DNA from: an uncultured Pelagibacteraceae bacterium
GTDB lineage: Bacteria > Pseudomonadota > Alphaproteobacteria > Pelagibacterales > Pelagibacteraceae
DNA: 64,000 nucleotides
Direction of reading: 5' to 3'
NCBI GenBank assembly: GCA_902609685.1
Contig: CACLSR010000002.1
Coordinates: 1 to 64,000, forward strand
Below, piece by piece: positions 2,075-16,278 of the stretch (positions within the stretch are counted from its first letter, which is position 1; the number at the start of each line of letters is the position of its first letter). The notes below the pieces were generated by a model. It was not told the origin of the DNA and made no database searches. It saw only the letters and a list, made by a program, of their open reading frames with translations. Made by a program: the position numbers and the translations under genes.

Positions 2075-4609
2075 ATGAGTAGATACAACTTTAAATCAGT
2101 AGAAAATAAATGGCAAAATTATTGGGAGAAAAACAAAAGTTTTAAGGTAAAAACAAATCCTGCTAAAAAAAAATTTTATTGTCTTGAAATGTTCCCTTAT
2201 CCATCAGGAAAAATTCATATGGGACACGTGCGAAATTATACCATTGGAGATGTACTTGCTCGTTATAAATTTTTAAAAGGATATAATGTTTTACATCCTA
2301 TGGGATGGGATTCTTTTGGTATGCCAGCTGAAAATGCAGCCAAACAAAATAATTTAGACCCAAAAAAATGGACTGAAACAAATATCCTCAATATGAAATC
2401 TCAACTGAAAAGATTAGGTTTATCAATCGATTGGGATAGAGAAATTTCAACCTGCAATAAGGATTATTACAAACATCAGCAAGCCTTTTTTCTTGATTTG
2501 TTTGAGAAAAAACTTGTTTACAGAAAAGAAAATTATGTCAATTGGGACCCAGTGGATGAGACTGTTCTTGCAAATGAACAGGTTATTGATGGGAAGGGCT
2601 GGCGTTCAGGAGCTGTAGTTGAAAGAAAAAAATTAAATCAGTGGTTTTTTAATATATCAAAATTTTCTCAGGAGTTGTTAGATGGTTTAGAAAAATTAGA
2701 TGATTGGCCAAACAAAGTTAAAGTAATGCAAAAAAATTGGATTGGAAAGTCGTTTGGGTGTGAAATTGATTTTAAAATTGAAGGTGATCTACCAGTGAAA
2801 AATATCAAATGCTTTACTACACGACCTGATACACTTTTTGGATTTTCTTTTCTTGCACTATCTGTAGATCATGAGATTTCCAAATTTTTTAATGACAAGG
2901 AAGACTTTTTAAATTTTAAAAACGAATGTTCTAAAACGGGTACAACTGAAGAAGCTATAGCAGTTGGTGAAAAAATTGGCTATAAAACTAACTTAAAAGC
3001 TATAAATCCTTTAAATCCAAACCAAAAAGTACCGGTATATTTTGCAAATTTTGTTCTTATGGATTACGGGTTTGGTGCTGTATTTGGTTGTCCAGCTCAT
3101 GATCAAAGAGATTTTGATTTTGCTAAAAAATATAAACTAGAAATCAAAACAGTTGTTAGACCAAATGAGGAAAACAAAAAATTTAAAGTAAATAATGAAG
3201 CATATTCAGGACCAGGTGTTTTAATTAATTCAGATTTCCTGAATGGTTTGGAAGCACCAGAAAAATCTGTTCTTGAAACTATTAAAATTTTAGAGCAAAG
3301 AAAATTAGGTAAAAAACAAATTAACTTTAGGTTAAAAGATTGGGGTGTATCTCGGCAAAGATACTGGGGATGCCCAATCCCAATAGCATATGATGAAGAA
3401 GGCACTGCTTACCCTATTCCAAAAACAATGCTGCCAGTAGAGCTACCAGAAAATATAGATCTTAAAGTTAAAGGTAATCCACTTGATAGTCAGGATAGTT
3501 GGAAAGAAGTTACTATAAATGGAAAAAAATTATTAAGAGAGACAGATACTTTAGACACATTTGTCTGTTCATCTTGGTATTATCTAAGATTTTGTTCTCC
3601 AAATGAGATTGGATATGGATTTAAAAAAGAGGATGTAGATTATTGGATGCCAGTTGATCAGTATATAGGTGGTGTTGAACATGCAATTTTACATTTACTT
3701 TATTCAAGATTTTTTATGCAAGCTTTGGCTCATGATAATAAAGATTTTAATATATTAGAACCTTTTAGTGGTTTGTTCACTCAAGGAATGGTCTGTCATG
3801 AAACTTATAAAGACCCTGATAATAATTGGGTTGGTCCTGACGAGATTGAAAATATTGATGGAAAAAAGTATCTAAGAAATGACAAATCTAAATTGATTTC
3901 TGTTGGGCCATCAGAGTCAATGTCAAAATCTAAAAAAAATACAATCGATCCAGAAGGTATCATTTCTAATTATGGGGCTGACTCAGCAAGATTGTTTATA
4001 TTGTCAGATAGTCCACCGGAAAAAGATGTTCAATGGTCTGAAGAGGGAATCATTTCATCCTTCAAATTCATCCAAAAACTTTGGAATTTAAATGAAAAAA
4101 TTCTTAACCAAATAAATCAAGATCACCAGAAAGATCATGACGAAGAGATTAAAAAATATACAAACAGATATCTTAAAAAAATTCATGATAATCTTGAGAG
4201 TTTTGGTTACAATAAAATTGTTGCAAACTTGTATGAGATGTATTCCTTTTTAAATAAACAAATAGAAAAAAAATACACAAAACAAACATTGATTGTAAAT
4301 TATCAAAAAATTTTAATTACGATGACACTGGTTGTACCCCACTTTGCCAATGAGTGTTTAGCAATTATGAATACTAAAAATATCACGTGGCCCGAGTACG
4401 ATGTCTCAATACTAAAAGATGATATTATTAATGTTGTTATCCAGATTAATGGAAAAAAAAGAGGTATTGTTCAGACAAAAATGAATATTAACGAGGAAAA
4501 ACTCTTTAAATTAATTCAGAATGATGAGAAAATAATGAAATATATTACTCAAAAAGAAATAAAAAGAAAAATTTATATTAAGGATAAACTTTTAAACATA
4601 ATTATTTAA
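2075..4609 (+). CDS. leuS: Leucyl-tRNA synthetase
   Basis: This 844-residue class I aminoacyl-tRNA synthetase charges tRNA-Leu. The HIGH-type motif is HMGH at residues 48-51, preceded by PYPSG. The KMSKS-type loop at about 616-620 reads SMSKSK, so the first lysine is Ser while the catalytic second lysine is kept. The editing domain (CP1) lies between them, with TTRPDTLFG near residue 250. The length fits bacterial LeuRS (about 860). It starts 30 bp after the DUF3576 lipoprotein gene, and the next gene starts immediately after its stop, so these genes are probably co-transcribed. Confidence 0.97.
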
Positions 4610-5065
4610 ATGCTTAAAAAGATTTTTTTCATAATTTTATCATTAAATCTACTTACACATTGTGAATATAAGCCTGTTTATTCTAAACAGAACAATGCTG
4701 GTTTAAAAATTATGATATCAGGTTTTACAGGTGATAAAGATATCAATAATTTTATAGCGTCAAATGTTAATAGGAGTAGTAAAAATGAATCTAACGACAT
4801 TGTTAAAATAAATTTTAATACAAATTATACAAAAAAAATTTTGGCAAAAAATAGTGCGGGCACAATTACTGACTATCAAAGTGATGTGGTAACAACATTT
4901 GTTATAAGAAAAGATGACAATACAGAAAATTTTGTTGTAAGAGATAAATTTAATTTTAAAAAAATGACTGATAAGTATGAGGAAAAAAATTATGAGCTAA
5001 ATATCAAGCGAAATCTTGCAAATTCAATATCACAAAAGCTGATACTTAGATTAGCCGCAAATTAA
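4610..5065 (+). CDS. lptE: LPS-assembly lipoprotein LptE-like
   Basis: This is a 151-residue predicted lipoprotein. A short N-terminal hydrophobic stretch ends in LLTHC with Cys18 as the lipidated residue, followed by EYKPVY, a motif typical of the alphaproteobacterial LptE/RlpB family. LptE plugs the LptD barrel that inserts lipopolysaccharide into the outer membrane. Its ATG begins directly after the leuS stop, and its TAA overlaps the ATG of holA as TAATG. The leuS-lptE-holA order is the common proteobacterial one and supports the assignment, because sequence similarity in this family is weak. Confidence 0.8.
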   Translation: MLKKIFFIILSLNLLTHCEYKPVYSKQNNAGLKIMISGFTGDKDINNFIASNVNRSSKNESNDIVKINFNTNYTKKILAKNSAGTITDYQSDVVTTFVIRKDDNTENFVVRDKFNFKKMTDKYEEKNYELNIKRNLANSISQKLILRLAAN

Positions 5066-10234: not shown

Positions 10235-11572
10235 TTATTTTCCAATGCAAAAATCGTTGAAAATACTACCTAATATTTCCTCTACATTTACTTTTCCAAC
10301 TATCATACCTAAATGTCTCGTAGCCAACCTCAAATCCTCAGCTCCTTTATCAAAATCTTTTTTATCATTTTTTTCTATGAAATTTCTTAAGTTGTCTGAA
10401 CACTGAATTAAGTGTTGTCTGTGTCTTTCTCTAGTAATTAGTACATCTTCATTTACAATAAATTTTGTCTTTAACTTATTTTTGATTTTTGAAATTAATT
10501 TATCTAAATTAAGATTTTCTTTTAATGAAATTAAAACATGATCCAACTTTTTTACTTCAATATCTAATTCGCTATTAATAAGATCTGACTTATTTACAAC
10601 TAAAATTGCATTATCTTTTAATAAGTCATTCAAAAATCCACTTAAATCAATACTTTTTGCACTTACTACCACTAATTTTAAATCAGCATTTTCTGCTCTA
10701 TCTAGCGATAATTTTATACCTTTTTTCTCTATTTCATCTTTAGAATTTCTTATGCCTGCCGTATCTGAGATTATAACGGGATAGCCATCTATATTTAGAT
10801 GTGTTTCAATTACATCTCTTGTTGTTCCTGCAATTTCGGAAACTATAGCTACATCTCTTTTCGATAAATTGTTTAATAATGAAGATTTACCAGCATTTGT
10901 TGGACCAACTATAGCTATTTTGAAACCTTCACGGATTATTTCACCTACTTTTTGATCATCTAAAATTTTATTAATTTGATTTAAAACTTCAGTCGAATCT
11001 TTTTTAATTTGTTGTATGTTTTCATCAGGTAAATCTTCCTCAGGGAAATCTATTTTTGCCTCAACGAAAGATAAAATCTTAAGTAATTTTTCTCTTAAAC
11101 CTTCAAATATCTTAGCTGATTTTCCTTTCATTATTTTTACAGCTTGTAATCTTTGTATCTCAGTTTCTGCTGAGATTAAGTCTGCTATACTCTCAGCTTT
11201 CAGCAAATTGATTTTACCATTTTGAAAAGCTATTTTGGTAAATTCTCCTGGCTCAGCTAATCTAAAGTTCTCTATTTTAGATATTTCATTTTGAAGTGCT
11301 ATAACGATTGCTTTACCTCCGTGGATATGAATTTCAACCATATCCTCGCCTGTATAGCTCTGAGGGCCTGGAAACCATATTATTATACCTTCATCTATTA
11401 ATTCAAAAGTATTGATACTATTAATTTTTCGAAGGGTAGCTATTCTAGGTGGAGGGACAGGTTGTCCAGTGAGTAGGGTAATGGCTTTAGATGCGTTGGG
11501 ACCAGATATTCTGATAATTGCTATTCCTGATATTCCGGGACCTGATGAAAGAGCATAGATTGTCATAGTCAA
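10235..11572 (-). CDS. mnmE: tRNA modification GTPase MnmE
   Basis: This 445-residue GTPase partners MnmG in wobble-uridine modification. The N-terminal folate-binding domain begins with IYALSSGPGISGIAIIR. The G domain is inserted in a helical domain: G1 is GPTNAGKSS (about residue 220), the G2/K-loop region is AGTTRD, G3 is DTAG and G4 is NKSD. The C-terminus is the diagnostic CIGK with the catalytic Cys442. An internal ATG two codons downstream could also be the start. In many alphaproteobacteria rho is nearby; here two glycosyltransferase genes separate rho from mnmE. Confidence 0.96.
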   Translation of the reverse strand: MTMTIYALSSGPGISGIAIIRISGPNASKAITLLTGQPVPPPRIATLRKINSINTFELIDEGIIIWFPGPQSYTGEDMVEIHIHGGKAIVIALQNEISKIENFRLAEPGEFTKIAFQNGKINLLKAESIADLISAETEIQRLQAVKIMKGKSAKIFEGLREKLLKILSFVEAKIDFPEEDLPDENIQQIKKDSTEVLNQINKILDDQKVGEIIREGFKIAIVGPTNAGKSSLLNNLSKRDVAIVSEIAGTTRDVIETHLNIDGYPVIISDTAGIRNSKDEIEKKGIKLSLDRAENADLKLVVVSAKSIDLSGFLNDLLKDNAILVVNKSDLINSELDIEVKKLDHVLISLKENLNLDKLISKIKNKLKTKFIVNEDVLITRERHRQHLIQCSDNLRNFIEKNDKKDFDKGAEDLRLATRHLGMIVGKVNVEEILGSIFNDFCIGK

Positions 11573-11611: not shown

Positions 11612-13294
11612 TTAATTAACAATTCCCTCAAGTGCTTCAAAAAAACTCTTACAATAATTTTGAACATTAAATAACGGGCTTTTTAATGCATTAAGAAATA
11701 TTGATTTTCTAAGATTAATATAATCTTCATGATTATTAGATAAATCGACAACTTTATTTACATAATCTTCCTCATCTTTAGCAACCATTCGTTCCATATT
11801 CAGATTTTTATTAATTGACTCGCCACATCTTGAATTAAAATTATACCCAGCCATTGTTATAACAGGAACACCCATCCATGTGGCCTCAAAGGATGTTGTA
11901 ACACCATTGTACGGGAATGTATCTAGGGCAATATCAATATCATTATAGGTAATGAGATGATGTTTTAAATCTTCCTGCCTACCTATAAATTGAATTGATT
12001 CTAAAACATCGTTTTTTTCGAACAAATTTTTAAGTCTTTTTAATGCATGATTTCTATGCGATGTTTTTAAAACAAGTTTAGATTTACTGACCCTTTTAAG
12101 AATATTTGACCACACATTTACAACGTCAGGATTTATTTTATTAAAACTATTAAAAGAACCAAAGGTAAAGTATTTATTATTAATAAATGGGGGAGGGTTT
12201 TCTTTTCTTTCAAAATCAAAGCCACAATGGCAATTCCATATTTCAGGTAAATATATTACTTTTTCAGAATAAAATTTTTGTTCATCTGGCTTAATAAGAT
12301 TAGGGTCAGAAATTATATAATCCATATTTTCTAATCCTGAAGTATTGCAATAACCCATCCATATAACTTGTTTCTTGGCAAGCCTGTTCTTTAATAATTC
12401 TATACGATGTGTTGATGTATAGCCCATTAAATCTATTGTAATATCTAATTTTAACTCTCTTATTTTATTTAAAGCGCTTATATTATTTAAATTTGAAATA
12501 TTTATTGTTTCAGTTGCCAAATTTTTAAAACTTTGTGTTAACTGGTCTTCCTTTGCATTATTCAAGAGCAAAACAATTTCAAATTTTTTTTTATCATAGT
12601 TTTGTAATACAGTTTTCAAAAAATATGTGATGGAATGTCCCTGTAAAATATCAGATGATAAAAAACCTATTCTAATTTTTGGACCAGTTTCTTGAAATAT
12701 TTCTGATAACTTGTCTTCAGGTAATATTTGTAAGTTTTTATCCACAAAACTACCATATTCTAAAAAGTCTGCTTGAGACCATTCTTTACCAAAACATCTC
12801 CAATAACCATAATTACACAAATCATCAGCTGTAAAGTTTTTAGATTTGATTATTTGATCAAAATGGAAAGTTAACTTATTAGAGTCGTTTAATCTGCGAT
12901 AAACCATAGCCATTGCAAGATGGATTGTTTTGTGGTTTGAACATAATTCTTCAGATGACTTATAAAATTCAAGAATTTCAGTAAAATCAAATTTATAGTT
13001 TTTTTCTAAGTCAATTAATAAAACGTTAGTAGTAATAAAATTAGCGAGAGAGTCTAGAGCGTGATTTGTATTCTTTTCTTTCAAATATCCACTCTTAAAA
13101 TCTTTTATTGCTAAATTTAATGCATCAATATTCTTTTTATTGTTACTAACTCTACTTAACCCTAATAAATTATGCAAAAATGAAGACCTTTCTTGCTCAT
13201 TGGTTTGCGAGGTAATTTCAAATACCACTCTGGAATATTCTTTTTGTTTAAATAATTCTTGAAGTTCTAAGACTAGTTTTTTATTTGAGGTCAT
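11612..13294 (-). CDS. GT41/SPINDLY-like glycosyltransferase, paralogue B
   Basis: This 560-residue protein resembles the catalytic half of O-GlcNAc transferase/SPINDLY (GT41). The N-terminal 200 residues are helical and probably TPR-like. The catalytic part starts at about residue 206 with KIRIGFLSSDILQGHS and includes QVIWMGYCNTSG. Near residue 460 it has DTFPYNGVTTSFEATWMGVPVI split across the nucleotide-binding core. Bacterial relatives glycosylate proteins or surface structures; donor and acceptor are unknown. It lies 29 bp downstream of a diverged paralogue, with blocks of perfect DNA identity that point to gene conversion. Both copies are intact. Confidence 0.8.
   Translation of the reverse strand: MTSNKKLVLELQELFKQKEYSRVVFEITSQTNEQERSSFLHNLLGLSRVSNNKKNIDALNLAIKDFKSGYLKEKNTNHALDSLANFITTNVLLIDLEKNYKFDFTEILEFYKSSEELCSNHKTIHLAMAMVYRRLNDSNKLTFHFDQIIKSKNFTADDLCNYGYWRCFGKEWSQADFLEYGSFVDKNLQILPEDKLSEIFQETGPKIRIGFLSSDILQGHSITYFLKTVLQNYDKKKFEIVLLLNNAKEDQLTQSFKNLATETINISNLNNISALNKIRELKLDITIDLMGYTSTHRIELLKNRLAKKQVIWMGYCNTSGLENMDYIISDPNLIKPDEQKFYSEKVIYLPEIWNCHCGFDFERKENPPPFINNKYFTFGSFNSFNKINPDVVNVWSNILKRVSKSKLVLKTSHRNHALKRLKNLFEKNDVLESIQFIGRQEDLKHHLITYNDIDIALDTFPYNGVTTSFEATWMGVPVITMAGYNFNSRCGESINKNLNMERMVAKDEEDYVNKVVDLSNNHEDYINLRKSIFLNALKSPLFNVQNYCKSFFEALEGIVN
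12153..12379. repeat. Gene-conversion tract, copy 1
   Basis: Bases 12153-12271 (119 bp) are identical to 13862-13980, and 12312-12379 (68 bp) are identical to 14021-14088. The 40 bp between the two blocks differ at 16 positions. The offset is constant at 1709 bp. The repeats lie in the catalytic-core coding region of the two tandem GT41-like genes. Confidence 0.9.
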
Positions 13295-13323
13295 TAGTAA
13301 ATTTAAGCAAACATTTTAATAAG

Positions 13324-15000
13324 TTAAACTATTTCTTTTAATGACTTAAAAAAATTTTCAGAAAATTTTTTTCTATTAAATAATGGACTTTCTGTTGAAT
13401 CTGTAAAGACAGATTTTCTTAAACTGATATACTCATTATGATTATTTGATAAACCAACTGCTTTATCTACATAATCATCCTCATCTTTAGCAATCAATTG
13501 TTCCATATTCAAATTTTTATTAATCGACTCGCCACATCTTGAATTAAAATTGTATCCTGCCATAGTTAAAACAGGTACTCCCATCCATATTGCCTCAAAG
13601 GATGTTGTAACACCATTGTACGGAAATGTATCTAGAGCAACATCTATTTTTCTATAAAGATTTAAATGATCTTCTAATTTATCAATTCTATAATAAAAAG
13701 AAACAGAGTCCAATACACCATTTTTTTTAAATATTTTTTCGATTCTATCAAATTTTCTTTTTTTGCTAGAGCATTTTATAATAAGTTTGGATCCTTTAAC
13801 TTTCTTTAAAATATTTGACCAACAATTAAGTACGTCATCTGTCATTTTTGAGGGATTATTGAAAGAACCAAAGGTAAAGTATTTATTATTAATAAATGGG
13901 GGAGGGTTTTCTTTTCTTTCAAAATCAAAGCCACAATGGCAATTCCATATTTCAGGTAAATATATTACTTTTTCAGAATATAAGTTTTTTTCATTTTCAT
14001 AAATTAAGTTCGGATCCGTGATTATATAATCCATATTTTCTAATCCTGAAGTATTGCAATAACCCATCCATATAACTTGTTTCTTGGCTAGTCTATTTTT
14101 GTAAAACTCTATTCTATTTCTTGATGTATAACCCATTATATCAATCATTATATCGAGATTGAACTTTCTGATTGTATTGAACGCCCTAAGATTATCTAGC
14201 TTCCCAACATCTATTGTTTTGCTAGCTAGATTGGTTATCCGCTCGGCTGTCTTTTCATCTTTTAAACGATTTGTAAACAAGATTATTTCGAAATTTTTTT
14301 TATCATAATTTTCTAACACAGTTTTTAAAAAATAATTTATAGAGTGACTTCCATTTATATCTGCTGATAAAAAACCAACTCTTATTTTTTCATTTTTTTT
14401 ATCAGACAAAGGAACAATATCTTTTTGGGAATATTCGCTTAAGTTTTCATTAACAAACTGACCAAATTCTAGAAATTTCGATTGTGTCCAGTTTTTATCA
14501 AAACATCTCCAATATCCATAGTTACACAAGTCTTGAGCAATAAATTCTTTAGATTTAATAATTTTTTCAATATGAAATACCATGCCCTTATAATCACTAA
14601 GTCTAGAGTATATTGTTGACATAGCAATATTAATTGGTCTTTGATCCTTTAAGTGTTTTGGTAATACTTGATAAAAACTTTTTATTTCGTCAAAATCAAC
14701 ATTGGTATTTTCAAAATCACTCAGAATTGAACTCGTAAGGACAAAATTGGTTAAAGCGTTAAGACCACCAACACTTTCACTGTCTTTAAGATATCCCTTT
14801 TTAAAATCTTGGACTGCCAAACTAACTTGATTTTTATCTTTTAAACCTAAAGACATTCTACTGATTCCCAAAAGTACAAACAGCCCAGCATTTCTCTCTT
14901 CTTCTGTTGTTCTTGAGGTTATTTGAAAGATTATCTCTGAATATTTTTTCTTTTTATATAAATCTTGTAATTTTAATTCTAAATCTTTTGCTGATACCAT
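13324..15000 (-). CDS. GT41/SPINDLY-like glycosyltransferase, paralogue A
   Basis: This is a 558-residue paralogue of the downstream gene with the same layout: a helical, probably TPR-like N-terminal region and a GT41 catalytic region from about residue 206 (KIRVGFLSADINGSHS). IWMGYCNTSG follows, with DTFPYNGVTTSFEAIWMG near residue 460. The N-terminal halves of the pair are clearly diverged while parts of the catalytic core are identical in DNA. It starts 9 bp after the rho stop and is probably co-transcribed with it. There is no signal peptide, so it should act in the cytoplasm. Function is inferred from the family only; the target could be a surface protein, flagellin-like protein or glycan. 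Confidence 0.8.
   Translation of the reverse strand: MVSAKDLELKLQDLYKKKKYSEIIFQITSRTTEEERNAGLFVLLGISRMSLGLKDKNQVSLAVQDFKKGYLKDSESVGGLNALTNFVLTSSILSDFENTNVDFDEIKSFYQVLPKHLKDQRPINIAMSTIYSRLSDYKGMVFHIEKIIKSKEFIAQDLCNYGYWRCFDKNWTQSKFLEFGQFVNENLSEYSQKDIVPLSDKKNEKIRVGFLSADINGSHSINYFLKTVLENYDKKNFEIILFTNRLKDEKTAERITNLASKTIDVGKLDNLRAFNTIRKFNLDIMIDIMGYTSRNRIEFYKNRLAKKQVIWMGYCNTSGLENMDYIITDPNLIYENEKNLYSEKVIYLPEIWNCHCGFDFERKENPPPFINNKYFTFGSFNNPSKMTDDVLNCWSNILKKVKGSKLIIKCSSKKRKFDRIEKIFKKNGVLDSVSFYYRIDKLEDHLNLYRKIDVALDTFPYNGVTTSFEAIWMGVPVLTMAGYNFNSRCGESINKNLNMEQLIAKDEDDYVDKAVGLSNNHNEYISLRKSVFTDSTESPLFNRKKFSENFFKSLKEIV
13862..14088. repeat. Gene-conversion tract, copy 2
   Basis: This is the partner of 12153-12379, with 119 bp and 68 bp blocks of perfect identity around a 40-bp divergent stretch. 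It lies in GT41-like paralogue A. The repeats are direct, so recombination between them would delete about 1.7 kb and fuse the two genes in frame. Confidence 0.9.
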
Positions 15001-15009
15001 TACATGTAT

Positions 15010-16278
15010 CTATGCTGGTTTATTCATTGAATTAAAAAACTCAGCATTATTTTTAGTATCTTTTAATTTAGAATTAATAAATTCTATTGCATCCATTGTG
15101 CCCATTGGTGCAATTATTCTCCTTAGGACATTCATTTTTTGAAGGTCATTTTTGTCAAACAACAGCTCTTCTCTTCTCGTACCTGATTTTGTAATATCAA
15201 TAGCTGGATAAATTCTTTTATCTGCAATTTTTCTATCAAGGACTGTTTCACTATTTCCAGTACCTTTAAATTCTTCAAAAATTACTTCATCCATTCTACT
15301 ACCAGTATCAATTAATGCTGTAGAAATAATTGTTAATGATCCACCTTCTTCGATATTTCTTGCAGCACCAAAAAATCTTTTGGGTCTTTGCAAAGCATTG
15401 GCATCAACCCCACCAGTTAAAACCTTTCCTGAGCTTGGAATTACAGCATTATAAGCTCTCCCTAATCTCGTTATTGAGTCTAAAAGTATAACTACATCTT
15501 TTTTATGCTCTGTTAATCTTTTTGCCTTTTCTATAACCATTTCAGCAACAGCAACATGCCGTTGAGCGGGCTCATCAAATGTAGAACTAATTACTTCGCC
15601 TTTTACAGTTCTCTGCATATCTGTTACTTCTTCTGGTCTCTCATCAATCAGCAATACAATTAAGTAACATTCAGGATAATTTTTTGCTATTGAGTTAGCT
15701 ATGCTCTGTAAAATCATGGTTTTACCGGCTTTGGGAGGCGAGATAATAATTGATCTTTGACCCTTACCAATTGGACTAACTAAATCTATAAGTCTTGGAG
15801 TTAAATCTTGTTTTTTGTCAGGCTTTACTTGCTCTACTTCCATAACAAGTTGCTTATCTGGATATAGGGGTGTCAAGTTATCAAAAGCAATTTTATGTCT
15901 AGATTTATCAGGTTCCTCAAAATTAATTTTACTTACTTGCAATAATGCAAAATACCTTTCTCCTTCTTTTGGAGCTCTAACTGGTCCTTCAACTGTATCA
16001 CCTGTTCTTAAACCAAATTTTCTGATCTGGCTTGGGCTCACATAAATATCATCCGGACCTGGTAAATAATTTGACTCCATGGCTCTTAAGAAACCAAAAC
16101 CATCTTGGAGTAATTGTAGCACACCAGCTCCGGTTATTTCCTCTTTTTCTGCAACCTTTTTTAAAATCGCAAAAAGTATTTCTTGTTTTCTTAGAGTACT
16201 TGCATTTTCTATTCCAAGCTCTTCTGCTTGAGTAATAAGCTGTTCTGATGATTTAAGTTTTAGTTCTTGTATGTTCAT
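15010..16278 (-). CDS. rho: Transcription termination factor Rho
   Basis: This 422-residue hexameric RNA helicase ends transcription of untranslated RNA. The N-terminal Rho-N and cold-shock-like RNA-binding domains include [14 protein letters not shown]. The ATPase core has Walker [10 protein letters not shown] (about residue 180), Walker [17 protein letters not shown], and the conserved [22 protein letters not shown] region (cited in parts). The length matches E. coli Rho (419). It lies 62 bp after hemJ in the same direction, as in other alphaproteobacterial origin regions (hemE-hemH-hemJ-rho). Confidence 0.97.

Follow-up and report, generated by a model that had tools for sequence, protein, structure and literature searches.

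Concerted evolution of prokaryotic paralogues has been described for tufA/tufB, mtrA, fla and others, in which the paralogues of one genome are closer to each other than to their orthologues, also at synonymous sites, repeatedly and across species (PMC6053082). The gene pair analysed here, called A and B, likewise contains within-genome paralogues closer than orthologues, and it is arranged in tandem like mtrA and fla. The difference lies in the extent of the exchange. In the published cases conversion covers the full gene length, while in A and B it is confined to catalytic segments and the remainder of the genes falls into two old clades.

On the protein side, the best match of the A/B family in both sequence and fold is Arabidopsis SPINDLY, a GT41 protein O-fucosyltransferase (7y4i, 8dtf). 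The identity is only ~23%, SPINDLY carries 11 TPRs whereas the helical-repeat domain here has ~185 residues, and the function of A and B is read from sequence and a structure model. TtOGT (5djs) and XcOGT (2jlb) resemble A and B in length (~530-570 aa), in having a TPR-like N-terminus followed by a GT-B domain, and in the tyrosine at the donor-pocket position, but they share 19-20% identity with A and B, and tandem conversion is not described for them in the cited literature. Searches of the literature turned up no account of gene conversion in glycosyltransferases of SAR11.

The gene pair and its proteins

The window, i.e. the whole 64,000-nucleotide stretch of Pelagibacteraceae DNA that was analysed, contains four consecutive open reading frames on the minus strand: rho (15010-16278), gene B (13324-15000, 558 aa), its downstream tandem paralogue gene A (11612-13294, 560 aa) and mnmE (10235-11572). 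The A and B proteins are 58% identical, and a genome search found no GT41 copies of this kind in the source genome besides these two. An intact B-A pair lies between rho and mnmE in 10 other related Pelagibacteraceae genomes (L076, L077, L079, L080, L081, L082, L085, L086, L093 and L096), and the order rho-B-A-mnmE is common to all orthologous pairs. L087 has the pair at the same place with B frameshifted; in L087:3323-5001, B is broken into two overlapping reading frames (3323-3763, 3736-5001) by a frameshift or a sequencing error, and A is intact. An additional set of genomes held no relatives closer than those already found, and the viral contigs searched held no relatives of the pair.

Across the genus (L100, L101, L102, L103, L108 and L109), the stretch between rho and mnmE is occupied by a single GT41 gene or by two, from diverse subfamilies. 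Among them are further tandem pairs that show no conversion, and one copy lies on the opposite strand; the interval resembles a socket for genes of this family. In L084 (6680-7582) and L089 (6680-7583), a minus-strand ORF of ~285 aa, which begins like a sulfotransferase (ASYPKSGNTW), is located between a lone A-type GT41 gene and mnmE.

The assignment to GT41 made in the preliminary description holds by three routes. Both proteins match Pfam PF13844 (Glyco_transf_41; B 6.7e-46, A 2.9e-44), with 151.7 and 157.1 bits for the two proteins against a curated cut-off of 25. A profile of 36 relatives finds Arabidopsis SPINDLY as its best match, followed by Thermobaculum OGT, human OGT and XcOGT. The AlphaFold2 model of B (pLDDT 90.1) has helices at 4-185 followed by Rossmann-type elements, predicting a helical-repeat N-terminus (~4-185) and a two-lobed GT-B catalytic domain (~205-557), the architecture expected of GT41, and its best Foldseek match is SPINDLY 8dtf (E 8.6e-31). 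The SPINDLY residues H495, S496, N661, K665, H728, Y744 and T748, whose functional roles are taken from PMC9715652, correspond to H219, S220, N381, K385, H445, Y461 and T465 of B. K385, T465 and H219 are invariant and Y461 is nearly invariant in the 36 proteins, and the catalytic residues K665, Y744, T748 and H495 thus all have conserved counterparts. A UDP-glucose:protein N-glucosyltransferase (NGT/HMW1C) was considered and rejected, with NCBIfam NF049992 giving 51.9 and 38.9 bits against an equivalog cut-off of 1000.

The SPINDLY residue matching Y461 has been linked to donor choice, and the same tyrosine occurs in XcOGT and TtOGT (PMC9715652), so that Y461 leaves the donor undecided. The source genome contains gmd (GDP-mannose dehydratase), which is compatible with a GDP-deoxyhexose donor but does not demonstrate one. 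The donor sugar may be GDP-fucose, from which SPINDLY-type enzymes transfer fucose to Ser/Thr of proteins, or another small sugar.

Identical tracts and conflicting trees

A and B share two identical blocks on the minus strand at a constant offset of 1709 bp. Tract 2 is 119 bp long (12153-12271 in A, 13862-13980 in B; B residues 341-380) and tract 1 is 68 bp long (12312-12379 in A, 14021-14088 in B; B residues 305-327). The two blocks are separated by 40 bp (12272-12311 in A, 13981-14020 in B) that differ at 16 positions. These lengths, the offset and the count of differences agree exactly with the preliminary description, and so do the more diverged outer parts of the genes, where the identity drops to ~0.6 immediately below the 119-bp block and to ~0.7 above the block of 68 bp, and is lower further out. 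The NG86 dS between A and B is 0.00 in the blocks, 1.23 outside them, and 1.52 outside both the blocks and the hotspot segment described below. The residues of the 40-bp island are A-type in A and B-type in B, and therefore the blocks represent either two tracts or a single one that was patchily repaired. As for the direction of conversion, tract 1 is B-like (TSG), and tract 2 has B-like residues at PEIWNC but A-like ones at NKYFTFG; with the diagnostic residues mixed and the AU tests weak, the data favour neither direction.

A third stretch of similarity was missed by the preliminary description. Runs of 16, 26 and 32 bp lie within 11769-11914 of A and 13478-13623 of B, inside a segment (11753-11935 in A, alignment columns 492-552, with the runs of 26 and 32 bp; 13462-13644 in B, residues 453-513; both minus strand) that includes the donor-pocket residues Y461, T465 and T466. 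The dS of this segment is 0.37 compared with 1.52 elsewhere, and it is an older, partly eroded conversion tract.

Over most of the gene length, the A and B orthologues form two old clades. For columns 16-340, A and B are separate clades (the support of the A clade is moderate, 75/86), and forcing the two window genes together is rejected strongly (dlnL 189, p-AU 1.8e-60). For columns 341-416, on the other hand, the two window genes become sisters (98/77). Their grouping is rejected again for columns 417-488 (p-AU 8e-5), and columns 489-552 reject even the A clade (p-AU 0.006). The separate clades, together with the shared order rho-B-A-mnmE, place the duplication before the speciations. Per-block phylogeny and an alignment of orthologues had been suggested as checks on the gene conversion first proposed from the blocks; the trees switch by segment, the orthologues do not keep these blocks as their own, and other species have their own tracts elsewhere, all of which supports conversion between A and B.

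Recurrence at the donor pocket

Chance was assessed with a permutation in which the amino acids were fixed, the synonymous states were shuffled in 20,000 trials, and the longest codon run was scored. For the source pair, none of the 20,000 trials reached the observed codon-run length (P<=5e-5). Identical A/B runs were also found in L079 (174 bp), L096 (168 bp), L085 (90 bp), L086 (78 bp) and L082 (64 bp), all of them within the stretch matching B residues 453-513, so that a single hotspot has been converted in four other lineages (L079, L096, L085/L082 and L086). The permutation P values for the lineages with tracts range from 5e-5 to 1.4e-3. By the same codon-run test, there is no significant tract in the orthologous pairs of L076/L077, L080, L081 and L093, nor in the more distant tandem pairs of L100-L103. 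An overlapping tract is common to L082, L085 and L087, in which both L082 copies read GTT and both copies of L085 and of L087 read GTA; the exchange therefore probably went on after these three split.

The hotspot also stands out without reference to individual runs. In a scan along the gene, the within-genome A-B distance is clearly lower than the between-genome distance only at columns 496-551 (P=1.5e-4 and 5e-5), and in the hotspot the two distances are 0.17 and 0.32 respectively (P=5e-5). Weaker within-genome dips at columns 328-455 are accounted for, at least in part, by the source pair's own tracts. Sites diagnostic of A or B number 0 in columns 341-362 and 489-552, compared with ~0.2 per codon in most of the remaining gene. 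Conversion is found only in the catalytic half; the N-terminal half with its helical repeats is unconverted, and the homogenised catalytic core of the preliminary description is borne out.

Why the exchange concentrates here is a separate matter; an adaptive role would refine gene conversion and not exclude it. Conversion could keep a donor-sugar pocket shared between two enzymes that differ in their acceptor domains, such as the partners of a heterodimer or of a paired modification. The donor-pocket motif (Y461, T465, T466) lies within the hotspot, the amino acid identity of the hotspot within genomes (0.89) equals that among orthologues (0.88-0.89), and the N-terminal half, which binds the acceptor protein in SPINDLY and OGT (PMC9715652), retains its A or B identity. 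Recombination itself, however, needs long identical DNA, which a conserved region supplies unaided. The hotspot is the most conserved region of the protein, and so mechanism and selection are confounded; recombination may simply follow the longest or most conserved DNA. We treat an adaptive role as possible but doubtful. The more specific proposal, that selection focuses conversion on the donor pocket, so that the paired enzymes keep the same donor chemistry and only their acceptor-binding halves diverge, is somewhat less likely still. If true, recurrent short-tract conversion in these streamlined ocean bacteria would uphold a modular division of labour.

Competing explanations and significance

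The tract may have entered both A and B from elsewhere, for instance from another GT41 gene or another strain. SAR11 bacteria are generally regarded as recombining between strains, which as general background favours this possibility, and other GT41 genes exist in the genus. The source genome, however, has only the A and B copies, and two identical in-register imports, which would be needed in five lineages, are less simple than one exchange; we consider this origin very improbable.

An artefact, with the reads of one copy serving both copies during assembly, or with chimeras from amplification, is equally improbable, even though the source assembly is fragmented (20 contigs) and most of the related genomes were assembled from single cells or metagenomes. 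Genomes assembled separately have tracts at overlapping sites, and the tract of L082, L085 and L087 carries its lineage-specific GTT or GTA in both copies. The hotspot tract of the source pair is partly eroded, which is not the expected outcome of an artefact, and the 40-bp island is correctly A-type in A and B-type in B. Recurrence, erosion and shared lineage-specific variants argue strongly against this explanation.

Strong purifying selection alone, at the protein or nucleic-acid level, might seem to hold the blocks identical, as they sit in conserved catalytic segments (the A-B amino acid identity is 0.73-0.75 in columns 341-416 and 0.86-0.89 in columns 489-552, compared with ~0.5 elsewhere). 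The same 58 block codons, however, show 13-19 synonymous differences (of ~42 sites) against every orthologue examined, the orthologue dS over them is 1.5-1.7 compared with a within-genome dS of 0, and the A and B genes of other genomes are not identical at the source pair's blocks. Within the tracts, the paralogues are thus nearer to each other than to their orthologues at synonymous sites. Since these codons vary synonymously between species, the dS values contrast and the permutation with fixed amino acids rejects it, purifying selection alone is excluded for practical purposes. A nucleic-acid element keeping the blocks identical is ruled out by the permutation and by how freely the synonymous sites change from one species to another; no Rfam family was found at the blocks.

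The tracts, the segment-wise conflict of the trees, the recurrence and the hotspot are shown by these data, and we are highly confident that recurrent short-tract gene conversion between the long-diverged tandem genes A and B produced them. In this explanation, a tandem duplication that predates the compared species gave rise to A and B, which have since become saturated with synonymous changes. The two direct copies recombine by homology, presumably in a RecA-dependent way and probably with resolution without crossover, and tracts of up to ~170 bp are thereby copied repeatedly from one gene into the other. The latest events in the source pair homogenised two catalytic-domain patches, as two tracts or as one with patchy mismatch repair, with the 40-bp island between them escaping conversion; an older tract lies at the donor-pocket hotspot, where four other lineages were converted independently. 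Conversion would be kept in the catalytic core, where the proteins are interchangeable, and would be absent, or perhaps purged by selection, in the helical-repeat domain, where the roles of A and B separate, presumably through acceptor binding.

The idea that the exchange varies glycosylation specificity finds no support here: conversion removes differences, and the acceptor half is not exchanged. In-frame B/A fusions by a ~1.7-kb deletion, which the preliminary description proposed to look for, do not occur among the single-copy loci examined; the single-copy genes of L083, L084, L088 and L089 are A-type from end to end, and that of L078 is B-type throughout.

Clean, replicated part-gene conversion in bacterial protein-coding genes seems to be rarely documented, and PMC6053082 took full-length cases only. 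With about 10 related genomes carrying converted and unconverted versions, tract length, direction, erosion, and selection versus mechanism become directly testable. For the family itself, GT41 phylogenies of these genes built from the conserved catalytic motif will mislead.
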